A stretch of DNA of 64,000 nucleotides. It comes from Paracoccaceae bacterium (GTDB lineage: Bacteria; Pseudomonadota; Alphaproteobacteria; Rhodobacterales; Rhodobacteraceae). Position numbers and translations under genes: made by a program. Below are positions 49,772 through 54,951 of the stretch, piece after piece; position 1 is the first letter of the stretch; the number at the start of each line of letters is the position of its first letter. The stretch covers positions 17,979 to 81,978 of the forward strand of contig JAAEZB010000002.1 of NCBI GenBank assembly GCA_018223085.1. Reading direction: 5' to 3'. The notes below the pieces were generated by a model. It saw nothing but the letters and a program-made list of their open reading frames with translations, ran no database searches and was not told where the DNA came from.

Positions 49772-52051
49772 ATGTCGGACACATCCAAGGAGAGCCTGCG
49801 TCAGGCAGCCCTTTTTTATCATGAACACCCCAAGCCGGGGAAACTTGAGATCCGCGCCACCAAGCCGCTCGCCAATGGCCGTGATCTCTCGCGCGCCTAT
49901 TCTCCCGGCGTCGCCGAAGCCTGCCTCGAAATCAAGGACGATGCCGCCAACGCCTCGCGCTATACCGCGCGCGGCAATCTCGTCGCCGTGGTCACCAATG
50001 GCACCGCCGTGCTTGGCCTTGGCAATATCGGCGCGCTGGCCTCCAAGCCGGTGATGGAGGGTAAGGCCGTCCTGTTCAAGAAATTCGCCAATATAGACTG
50101 TTTCGATATCGAGGTCGATGAGAGCGACCCCGAGAAACTCGCCGATATCGTCTGTGCCCTCGGCCCAACCTTTGGTGCCATCAACCTCGAAGACATCAAG
50201 GCCCCCGACTGTTTCATCGTCGAGCAAATCTGCCGCGAACGCATGAATATCCCCGTCTTCCACGACGATCAGCACGGCACCGCCATCGTCGTCGGCGCCG
50301 CCGCAACCAATGCGCTCGAAGTTGCCGGGAAATCCTTTGAGGACATCAAGATCGTCTCGACGGGCGGCGGCGCGGCGGGCATCGCCTGCCTCAACATGCT
50401 TTTGAAACTCGGCGTGAAACGCGAAAATGTCTGGCTCTGCGATATTCACGGCCTCGTCTATGAGGGCCGTACCGAAGACATGACCCCGCAAAAAGCCGCC
50501 TTCGCGCAAAAGACCGACCTGCGCACGCTGGACGACGTGATCGACGGCGCGGACCTCTTTCTCGGCCTCTCCGGCCCCGGTGTCCTCACGCCCGATCACG
50601 TCGCCAAAATGTCCAAACGCCCAATCATCTTTGCGCTGGCCAATCCTACGCCGGAAATCATGCCCGACGCCGTCCGCTCGGTCGCCCCCGACGCGATCAT
50701 CGCCACAGGCCGAAGCGATTTCCCCAATCAGGTCAATAACGTCCTCTGCTTCCCCTTCATCTTCCGCGGCGCGCTCGACGTGGGCGCGACCGAGATCAAT
50801 GACGACATGTCCCTCGCCTGCGTTGCCGGGATCGCCGAACTCGCCCGCGCCACAACCTCCGCCGAGGCCGCCGCCGCCTACAAGGGCGAAGACCTGACCT
50901 TCGGTGCCGATTACCTGATCCCGAAACCCTTTGACCCCCGCCTCGTCGGCGTTGTGTCCGCCGCCGTCGCCAAGGCCGCCATGGAAAGCGGCGTCGCCAC
51001 CCGCCCCATCGACGATCTCGAAGCCTACAAGGCCCGCCTCGATCAATCGGTGTTCAAATCCGCCCTACTCATGCGCCCGGTTTTCCATTCCGCCCGCGCC
51101 GCCTCGCGCCGCATCATCTTTGCCGAGGGCGAGGATGAACGCGTCTTGCGCGCCGCCCAAGCCGTGCTTGAGGAAACCACAGAAACCCCGATCCTCATCG
51201 GCCGCCCCGAGGTGATCGAGGCGCGCTGCGAAAAGCTCGGCCTCGATATCCGCCCCGGCCGCGACATCCAGCTCGTGAACCCCGAGAACGATCCGCGCTA
51301 CTACGATTTCTGGAACACCTACCACGACATCATGCAGCGTCGCGGCGTGACCCCGGACCTCGCCAAGGCGATCCTGCGCACCAACAACACCGCCATCGCC
51401 GCCGTCGCCGTGCAACGCGGCGAGGCCGACAGCATGATCTGCGGAACTTTTGGCGAATACCGCTGGCATCTCAACTACGTCAATCAGGTCCTCGGCACCC
51501 AAGACCTGCGGCCCCACGGCGCCCTGTCGCTAATGATCCTCGAAGACGGGCCCCTCTTCATCGCCGACACCCACGTGCACCAACTCCCGACCCCGGAACA
51601 GCTCGCCGAGATCATTCTCGGCGCCGCCCGCCACGTGCGCCGCTTCGGCATCGAGCCCAAGATCGCGCTCTGCTCGCAATCGCAATTCGGCAATCAAGCC
51701 GAAGGCTCCGGCAAACGCCTGCGCGAAGCCATGGCGATCCTCGACACCGCCCCGCGCGATTTCACCTATGAGGGCGAGATGCCCGTCGATGTCGCCCTCG
51801 ACCCCGAGCTGCGCGCCCGCATCCTCCCCGCCTCCCGCCTTGAGGGCGAGGCCAACGTCCTCGTCTTCGCCCATGCCGACGCGGCCTCAGGCGTGCGCAA
51901 CATCCTCAAGATGCGCTCTGGCGGGCTCGAAGTCGGACCGGTCCTCATGGGCATGGGCAACCGCGCCCATGTGGTGACCCCCGGCATCACGGCGCGCGGC
52001 CTCCTCAACATGGCCGCCATCGCCGGAACACCGGTTGCCCATTACGGCTAG
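49772..52051 (+). CDS. maeB: NADP-dependent malic enzyme with C-terminal phosphotransacetylase-like domain
   Basis: [32 protein letters not shown]-terminal [22 protein letters not shown]. Confidence 0.93.
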
Positions 52052-52054
52052 ACT

Positions 52055-52080
52055 GCGGGGGGCTCCCCCGCGATATTTTC
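52055..52080 (+). terminator. Hairpin terminator-like structure after maeB
   Basis: GCGGGGG-GCT-CCCCCGCGATATTTTC. Confidence 0.6.
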
Positions 52081-52085
52081 AAAAA

Positions 52086-52224
52086 ATGCAAAGGAGGCGC
52101 CGCACCGCCCCTTTGCAGCTCAAAACTTTGCAGATTTGCAAAGGATCGCAAATTTTCAACCAAACCCCACTCAACAAAGCGAGTTTGCAAAATTTGCAGT
52201 GCGCATTTTCGCAAGACTGCAAAA
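52086..52224. promoter_or_regulatory. Cluster of about 9 TTTGCAAA-like sites upstream of prpE (candidate ScfR/PccR-type operator region)
   Basis: ATGCAAA 52086, CTTTGCAG 52111, TTTGCAGA/TTTGCAAA 52127-52142, TCGCAAA 52146, TTTGCAAA 52184-52191, TTTGCAG 52193, TTTCGCAAG 52207, CTGCAAAA 52217. Confidence 0.65.
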
Positions 52225-52319
52225 TATTCGCGATAATCTGACGCTACGTCCCGAAAGTGTCTTGCCGCAAACCATGCCCCTCCCGTAACACCCTAGCATT
52301 GAATTTGGAGGAGAATACC

Positions 52320-54212
52320 ATGGCCTATAAAGACGTTTACACAGCCTGGAAGAATGACCCCGAAGGGTTCTGGATGGACGCGGCCCAGTCGATTGACTGG
52401 GACGAGGCACCCTCAAAGGCCCTCTTCGACAAGGGCGATCACCTCTATGAATGGTTCGCCGACGCCAAGGTCAACACCTGCTGGAACGCCGTCGACCGTC
52501 ATGTCGAAAATGGCCGTGGCGAACAGACCGCCATCATCTACGATAGCCCCATTACCCATACCAAACGCGAAATCTCCTATGTCGAGCTGCGCAACCGCGT
52601 CGCCATGCTCGCCGGGGCCCTGCGCGCCAAAGGCGTTGAGAAGGGCGACCGCGTCATCATCTACATGCCAATGGTCCCCGAGGCGCTTGAGGCCATGCTC
52701 GCCTGCGCCCGCCTTGGTGCCGTGCACTCTGTGGTCTTCGGCGGCTTTGCCGCGCATGAGCTTGCCGTGCGCATCGACGACGCCAAACCCAAGGCCATCA
52801 TCGCCGCCTCCTGCGGTGTCGAGCCGGGCCGCGTCGTGCATTACAAACCGCTCCTCGACGACGCCATCGAGCAATCGACCCACAAGCCCGATTTCTGCGT
52901 CATCTTCCAGCGTGAGCAGGAAGTCGCCGAACTGATCCCGGGCCGCGACTACAACTGGCACGGTTTCCAATACGGGGTTGAGCCCGCCGAATGTGTGCCG
53001 GTCGAGGGCAATCACCCGGCCTATATCCTCTACACCTCCGGCACCACCGGCCAGCCCAAAGGCGTCATCCGCCATACCGCGGGTCAGCTCGTGGCGCTGA
53101 ACTGGACCATGAAGAACCTCTACAACGTGGAACCGGGCGATGTGTTCTGGGCCGCCTCGGACGTGGGTTGGGTCGTGGGCCACTCCTATATCTGCTACGG
53201 CCCCCTGATCCACGGCAACACCACCATTGTGTTCGAGGGCAAACCCGTCGGCACCCCGGATGCGGGCACCTTCTGGCGCGTGATCTCCGAACATAAGGTC
53301 AAGAGCTTCTTCACCGCTCCCACCGCCTTCCGCGCCGTGAAACGCGAAGACCCCAAGGGCGAGTTCGTCAAAAAATACGACCTCTCCTGCCTCAAACAGG
53401 TCTACCTCGCCGGAGAGCGCGCCGACCCCGACACCATCGTCTGGGCCCAGGATCAGCTTCAGGTGCCCGTGGTCGATCACTGGTGGCAGACTGAAACCGG
53501 CTGGGCCATCGCCGCGAACCCGGTCGGGATCGAAGAACTGCCGATCAAGCTCGGCTCGCCCACCGTGCCGATGCCCGGCTACGAGGTCGAAATCCTCGAC
53601 GAAGGCGGGCATCCGATGAAACCGGGAGAGCTTGGCGCCATCGCAATCAAACTGCCGCTACCGCCGGGCACCCTGCCCAACCTGTGGAACGCCGAGGATC
53701 GGTTCAAGAAATCCTATCTGTCGCACTTCCCCGGTTATTACGAGACCGGCGATGCAGGCATGATCGACGAAGACGGCTATGTCTACATCATGGCCCGCAC
53801 CGATGACGTCATCAACGTCGCCGGACACCGCCTGTCGACCGGGGCCATGGAAGAGGTGCTCGCCGCCCATCCCGACGTCGCCGAATGCGCCGTGATCGGC
53901 GTCAGCGATAGCCTCAAAGGTCAGATGCCCGTGGGCTTCCTCTGCCTCAACGCTGGCGCCGACAAGGCCCACGCTGATGTGGTCAAAGAGGTGGTCAAAA
54001 TGGTGCGCGATCAGATCGGCCCGGTGGCCGCCTTCAAACTCGCCGTTGTGGTCGACCGCCTGCCCAAAACCCGCTCGGGCAAAATCCTGCGCGGCACCAT
54101 GGTCAACATCGCCGACAACACCCCCTACAAGATGCCCGCGACGATCGACGATCCGGCAATCCTCGACGAGATCAAGGACGCGCTTCAAACCCTCGGTTAT
54201 GCCAAGGGCTGA
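52320..54212 (+). CDS. prpE: Propionate--CoA ligase (propionyl-CoA synthetase)
   Basis: ILYTSGTTGQPKGVIRHTAGQLVALNWTM; ASDVGWVVGHSYICYGPLIHGNTTIVFEGKPVGTPDAGTFWRVI; IKLPLPPGTLPNLWNAEDRF; start trimmed to MAYKDVYTAW. Confidence 0.88.
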   Translation: MAYKDVYTAWKNDPEGFWMDAAQSIDWDEAPSKALFDKGDHLYEWFADAKVNTCWNAVDRHVENGRGEQTAIIYDSPITHTKREISYVELRNRVAMLAGALRAKGVEKGDRVIIYMPMVPEALEAMLACARLGAVHSVVFGGFAAHELAVRIDDAKPKAIIAASCGVEPGRVVHYKPLLDDAIEQSTHKPDFCVIFQREQEVAELIPGRDYNWHGFQYGVEPAECVPVEGNHPAYILYTSGTTGQPKGVIRHTAGQLVALNWTMKNLYNVEPGDVFWAASDVGWVVGHSYICYGPLIHGNTTIVFEGKPVGTPDAGTFWRVISEHKVKSFFTAPTAFRAVKREDPKGEFVKKYDLSCLKQVYLAGERADPDTIVWAQDQLQVPVVDHWWQTETGWAIAANPVGIEELPIKLGSPTVPMPGYEVEILDEGGHPMKPGELGAIAIKLPLPPGTLPNLWNAEDRFKKSYLSHFPGYYETGDAGMIDEDGYVYIMARTDDVINVAGHRLSTGAMEEVLAAHPDVAECAVIGVSDSLKGQMPVGFLCLNAGADKAHADVVKEVVKMVRDQIGPVAAFKLAVVVDRLPKTRSGKILRGTMVNIADNTPYKMPATIDDPAILDEIKDALQTLGYAKG

Positions 54213-54318: not shown

Positions 54319-54951
54319 CTATTTGCAAAAAACCATATGCACCGGAAGCTGCGCCGCTTCGAACTGGCTCAACTCAACCGTCTTACCCTTGTACGGCAGG
54401 CGCACGCCTCCCCCCGCCCCATATACGGCCGTGCTGTCGGCGCGGTAGATATAGTATTGGATAATCCGGTTCTTGGTCTTGGCATCCCATGCCGGATAGG
54501 TCTTTCCATCCCCCGGAATCAGAAAAGGCTTCCCTTGGGTCCATGTCCCCGCAAGAGATTTGTAATAGATAAACCCGGAAATCGCGTGGGCGCACTTATT
54601 GGTAATATTGATCTTCTGCCCGCGCGGCTTGGCGGCCGCTTTCTTACTCGTCCCCTCACAGGCCTTTCGGGACGGCCAAAGCTGGTGACTTTCTACCCAG
54701 CGCTCACGCCCCCGACTGATCATGCTGCTGCCAGACATGAGACAGCTCTTCCGATGCGCAAGCACCTTATAGCTGCCCCCAGCTTTCTGAAGGATACGCA
54801 CCGGACAGGCCGTCCAACTGTCCTCGCCGACGACCCACATAAATTTCTGGTTCTTGGAACACACATACGCGGTATCTCCGCGTTCGTAAGCCATAGCCGC
54901 CCCTGCAATAACCACGAGAAAGAGGCTCAATGCCGCCAAAAAGTTCTTCAT
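54319..54951 (-). CDS. Exported hypothetical protein, Cys-rich
   Basis: Signal peptide MKNFLAALSLFLVVIAGAAMA; INITNKCAHAISGFIYY C-terminal domain. Confidence 0.7.
   Translation of the reverse strand: MKNFLAALSLFLVVIAGAAMAYERGDTAYVCSKNQKFMWVVGEDSWTACPVRILQKAGGSYKVLAHRKSCLMSGSSMISRGRERWVESHQLWPSRKACEGTSKKAAAKPRGQKINITNKCAHAISGFIYYKSLAGTWTQGKPFLIPGDGKTYPAWDAKTKNRIIQYYIYRADSTAVYGAGGGVRLPYKGKTVELSQFEAAQLPVHMVFCK

Follow-up and report, generated by a model that had tools for sequence, protein, structure and literature searches.

The window, the 64,000-nucleotide stretch of Paracoccaceae DNA analyzed here as a whole, belongs to a 3.0 Mb draft genome that is ~89% complete. Within it, prpE lies 3′ of a maeB-type malic enzyme gene across an intergenic gap of 268 bp (52052–52319), and the terminator-like hairpin that follows maeB implies that prpE probably has its own promoter. 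The best NCBIfam matches of the 630-residue PrpE are propionate–CoA ligases, with scores (720 and 690 bits) that fall short of the curated cut-offs (955 and 827, respectively). The ATG at 52320 was taken as the prpE start, and the GTG at 52257 proposed by the ORF caller was not adopted. A 210-residue reading frame 3′ of prpE, on the minus strand (54319–54951), has no Pfam match at E 1e-5. The features of the locus are as follows.

49772–52051, plus strand: maeB-type NADP malic enzyme with a phosphotransacetylase-like C-terminus, upstream neighbour of prpE
52054–52072, plus strand: terminator-like hairpin and T-rich tail 3′ of maeB, by consensus match only
52112–52118, plus strand: element A, TTTGCAG, found in many genomes of the genus and weakly kept across the family
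52127–52133, plus strand: element B1, TTTGCAG, 8 bp before B2, partly kept (mean pairwise identity 0.62)
52135–52142, plus strand: element B2, TTTGCAAA (mean pairwise identity 0.97)
52184–52191, plus strand: element C1, TTTGCAAA, kept in relatives
52193–52199, plus strand: element C2, TTTGCAG, 1 bp after C1 in this genome
52218–52223, plus strand: element D, TGCAAA, kept in relatives
52230–52242, plus strand: block GCGATAATCTGAC directly following D, whose conservation alongside the array is moderate (identity 0.64)
52261–52266, plus strand: predicted −35 element CTTGCC
52285–52290, plus strand: predicted −10 element GTAACA
52307–52313, plus strand: ribosome binding site GGAGGAG, from sequence reading
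52320–54212, plus strand: prpE, propionate–CoA ligase, 630 residues, from the best NCBIfam matches

The original prediction described about nine full or partial sites in front of prpE, including two closely spaced pairs, which direct reading of the sequence locates as claimed (TTTGCAGATTTGCAAA at 52127–52142 and TTTGCAAAATTTGCAG at 52184–52199). Between 52088 and 52223, five TTTGC and five GCAAA half-sites form eight elements, starting at 52088, 52112, 52127, 52135, 52148, 52184, 52193, and 52219; an imperfect second half-site, TTCGC, follows D at 52227–52231. The maeB-prpE gap holds 11 half-sites, against a mean of 2.7 and a maximum of 10 in 20,000 dinucleotide-preserving shuffles of 52052–52319, none of which reached 11; for the 6-mers TTTGCA/TGCAAA the count is 9, against a shuffle mean of 0.76, and again no shuffle of the 20,000 reached it. 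No 170 bp stretch of the window clear of the cluster contains more than five half-sites. These results confirm the motif cluster as genuine, but its elements are of unequal weight: B2, C1/C2, and D are kept in relatives and the others less so, the element at 52088 being without a regular counterpart in the listed relatives and that at 52148 not being kept.

Conservation of the cluster upstream of prpE orthologues had been named beforehand as a test that could refute the prediction, and such conservation was found. We compared prpE upstream regions from 80 Rhodobacteraceae genomes, 73 of which encode a PccR orthologue (at least 62% identity). An array, defined as five or more half-sites in the 300 bp upstream of prpE, is present in 52 of the 73 genomes with PccR and in none of the 7 without it (Fisher 4e-4, relatedness not corrected), although its absence from the latter could instead reflect ancestry or genome reduction. 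With 21 of the 73 PccR-bearing genomes lacking an array, the link between PccR and array is not obligatory. Mapping onto a PrpE tree of 75 proteins gives ~10 changes of array state (7 forced by well-supported branches), implying that the array was repeatedly lost or gained. In L078, L081, L083, L086–L088, L090, L091, L093, and L095 only 0–2 half-sites precede prpE despite a PccR orthologue; here prpE seems to have departed from the regulon, or never to have joined it.

The array geometry was examined in 42 genomes chosen by the C pair, a choice that itself accounts for part of the conservation seen at C; B2, D, and the −35 element played no part in the selection, and each was sought at its expected distance with a tolerance of a few bp to 16 bp. 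A TTTGC-type box lies 48–50 bp before C1 in all 42 genomes, and the D half-site GCAAA starts 25–27 bp after the C2 start in 41. The C1-C2 gap is 2 bp in 38/42 genomes and 1 bp in 4/42, this genome included. The distance from C2 to the CTTGC −35 element is 67–69 bp in all 36 genomes where that element was found, and it stays constant even in genomes where the start codon is displaced by 10–30 bp. The family layout reads B2 TTTGCAAA, 48–50 bp, C TTTGCAAA-N2-TTTGCa, 25–27 bp, D TGCAAA, and this geometry is kept across Rhodobacteraceae while the linkers are saturated: pairwise identity is 0.90–0.97 for B2, C1, C2, and D versus 0.29–0.37 for the longer linkers. Independently of selection by the C pair, exact TTTGCAAA copies in the whole family set lie at a distance of 48–50 bp from one another in 39 of 53 cases. 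Two same-genus genomes (L016 and L017) carry a rearranged version of the array without the standard C pair.

The presence of an ScfR homologue, the other refuting computational test named beforehand, was borne out by one full PccR-like protein (G000:C93, 8948–10378), the only clear PccR/RamB-type ScfR protein in the draft genome. Its HTH_3 (44 bits), Peptidase_M78 (69 bits), and ScfRs (233 bits) domains all score above cut-off, and it aligns with the solved M. tuberculosis PrpR (MtPrpR) over most of its length (283 bits). The Fe-S CxxCx4C cysteines and a further cysteine are present as in MtPrpR (CRICERTHC; GGACPLW). A tryptophan of the PccR-like protein aligns with a PrpR phenylalanine (PSPWDEVRDFF versus PMPFEEVRDFF), which should be the ligand-gating Phe155; R. 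sphaeroides PccR likewise has a tryptophan at the position of Phe155 (PMC6765138). The gene has the neighbourhood characteristic of the PccR subgroup, close to the propionyl-CoA carboxylase genes: the start of pccB (L003:5935–7470) is ~1.5 kb away from pccR, the two being separated by a single MFS transporter gene, and a pccA-like gene (L003:1576–3621) lies beyond pccB.

Genome-wide pattern searches with reversed-pattern controls agreed with the ScfR reading. When TTTGCAAA was required to have another TTTGC half-site, in either orientation, no more than 22 bp away, prpE, pccB, and pccR gave the only matches outside genes, two further matches lay in nusA and an xdhC-like gene, and the reversed control gave none; the same three promoters are matched in four same-genus genomes (G022, G006, G001, and G013). 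Looser or simpler patterns discriminate less: GCAAA-N0-6-TTTGC occurs at 26 places versus 16 in the control, and TTTGCAAA alone, at 34 versus 16 (~2-fold), is insufficiently specific. The strict form, TTTGCAAA-N0-8-TTTGCAAA, is absent from the genome, since in every pair one member is imperfect. The match at pccB is TTTGCAAATTTGC, and pccB carries two GCAAATTTGC sites with no internal gap, 40 bp apart in this genome; two further exact GCAAATTTGC copies lie inside reading frames (window 27529 and G000:C91). The pccR site is TTTGCAAAGCTATATTTGC, and a version with a 6 bp gap precedes pccR in 26 loci of the PccR set. Site spacing is thus particular to each of the three promoters. At pccR, TTTGCAAA-N6-TTTGC (L003:8930–8951) spans the predicted promoter CTGACG-N17-TATATT, a position that would suit self-repression.

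The prpE upstream region is built like an ScfR operator, with boxes resembling TTTGCAAA arranged in pairs ahead of a short-chain acyl-CoA gene. We propose, with a probability of about 0.8, that the cluster is the prpE operator for the PccR-type regulator encoded at G000:C93, which would activate prpE with propionyl-CoA. PccR, a putative propionyl-CoA sensor, would bind pairs B, C, and D, with box centres at about −157 (B2), −108/−98 (C), and about −75 (D) relative to a predicted start near 52297, and would activate a core promoter TTGCCG (52262)-N17-GTAACA (52285–52290); the −35 and −10 elements of this promoter are also found in many genomes without the array. PccR would also control pccB, acting at the two GCAAATTTGC sites, and its own gene, acting at TTTGCAAA-N6-TTTGC. 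Together with propionyl-CoA it would activate prpE and pccB jointly, tying substrate activation to carboxylation; since propionyl-CoA is the product of PrpE, the loop would keep reinforcing itself until the inducer is consumed by propionyl-CoA carboxylase. Binding by PccR, its ligand, the direction of control, and cooperativity are what we infer: the ligand is probably propionyl-CoA by analogy with published work on PrpR and PccR, and activation from upstream sites is likeliest given that PccR and RamB are described as activators (PMC10370305). The fixed inter-site distances fit the cooperative or graded control originally suggested, without demonstrating it. The strongest prpE sites lie at −98 or farther from the predicted start and the pccB and pccR sites close to their genes; it is not obvious how the prpE sites, D perhaps excepted, would bring PccR into direct contact with RNA polymerase. 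A more speculative extension, possible but on balance doubtful, is that B, C, and D, phased to the −35 element, form a rigid three-part assembly site holding a higher-order PccR complex, perhaps on looped or wrapped DNA, which might make prpE respond in a switch-like manner to the product of its own enzyme.

It is also conceivable, although rather unlikely, that PccR binds but mainly represses prpE until propionyl-CoA is present, or acts on a possible second promoter with D in its spacer. The candidate promoter-like pair, TTCGCA (52208) and GATAAT (52232–52237), separated by N18, is the sole sigma-70 consensus match in the region and includes part of the GCGATAATCTGAC block, whose family-wide form is roughly TGCGnnnnTCTGnC; the TTTGCAAA site at pccR, which appears to overlap its promoter, likewise has a repressor-like position. 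GATAAT, however, is kept in the closest relatives only, whereas CTTGC-N-TA is present with and without the array, at its constant distance from C2; most boxes lie upstream of either promoter, and the PccR and RamB proteins of related bacteria are reported to be activators (PMC10370305). Less probable still is that the main binder is another ScfR-type protein, either the G000:C49 protein or an MccR missing from the draft. A second ScfRs-domain protein does exist, MccR-like proteins (35–42% identity) occur beside PccR in some relatives, and the genome is 89% complete. That second protein (L004:6351–7667, G000:C49), encoded upstream of a sodium-solute-symporter/histidine kinase fusion, combines an HTH with a weak ScfRs match (37 bits), and no TTTGCAAA was seen in its own upstream region. 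The near-complete same-genus genomes G022 and G006 encode one PccR/MccR-type protein only and still have the array, and the motif is common to pccB, which is near pccR.

A very improbable explanation is that the boxes are sites for PhaR, the polyhydroxybutyrate regulator whose targets are TGC/GCA repeats. PhaR sites too contain TGC and GCA, and TGCAGTGCG at 52195–52203 matches the looser S. meliloti motif YGCRNYGCR, but the spacing of the Rhodobacter PhaR site, CTGCNNNGCAG (PMC12542648), is absent from the array, the near match is not kept in relatives (it is TTTGCAAGGCAG in L007), and the conserved letters of the array are TTTGC/GCAAA. Chance accumulation of simple repeats can practically be dismissed: the AT content is high by the standards of this genome (GC 0.485), but the composition-matched shuffles do not reproduce the counts, and the retention of the boxes amid saturated linkers refutes it. 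PhaR, a missing MccR, and chance were considered and rejected as explanations.

An operator for PccR, the preferred reading, can be set against the most similar systems described. In Rhodobacter (Cereibacter) sphaeroides, PccR is an ScfR-family regulator of pccB (Carter and Alber 2015, as cited in PMC10370305 and PMC12632250). The system described here resembles it in regulator type, pccB neighbourhood, TTTGCAAA-type sites, and propionyl-CoA metabolism. The R. sphaeroides pccB site is reportedly one pair with a 4 bp gap. Unlike that site, prpE here has three pairs with other gaps. The MtPrpR site, TTTGCAAA-N1-TTTGCgAA, is a 17 bp double site of the same kind as element C, bound by a homologous protein with Fe-S cysteines, but it controls the methylcitrate cycle as a single double site and not as a spaced array (PMC6765138). 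RamB of Paracoccus denitrificans is an ScfR activator that similarly requires two boxes upstream of its operon; these are 18 bp apart, the target is the glyoxylate cycle, and the ligands are ethylmalonyl-CoA pathway intermediates (PMC10370305). The ScfR assignment is supported by the homologue, the conserved array, and the motif at pccB and pccR, while the accompanying view that a 0–1 bp gap between units is unusual does not hold, given the 1 bp gap of MtPrpR (PMC6765138), the two gapless sites at pccB, and the 2 bp gap in most C pairs. Less ordinary about the prpE array are the number of pairs and the fixed distances.

The regulator is almost certainly PccR, a known type, for which prpE is a newly predicted target with an unusually rich and fixed site layout; the array adds one predicted target and no new type of control. 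A description of prpE as a PccR target was not found in the literature searched, which covered few subscription journals. PrpE of marine roseobacters is the proposed first enzyme of a PrpE-AcuI route that leads from acrylate, a product of cleavage of the algal compound DMSP, to propionyl-CoA and the methylmalonyl-CoA pathway (PMC5651017). In this marine bacterium PrpE activates propionate and probably acrylate too. If the higher-order three-part assembly is real, it would set prpE apart from the ScfR promoters reported to date, which have two boxes. If PccR controls prpE and pccB jointly, one acyl-CoA sensor would set both entry to and exit from the propionyl-CoA pool, and the fixed array, repeatedly lost or gained in the family, offers a natural series for testing how the number and spacing of boxes affect recognition by ScfR proteins.
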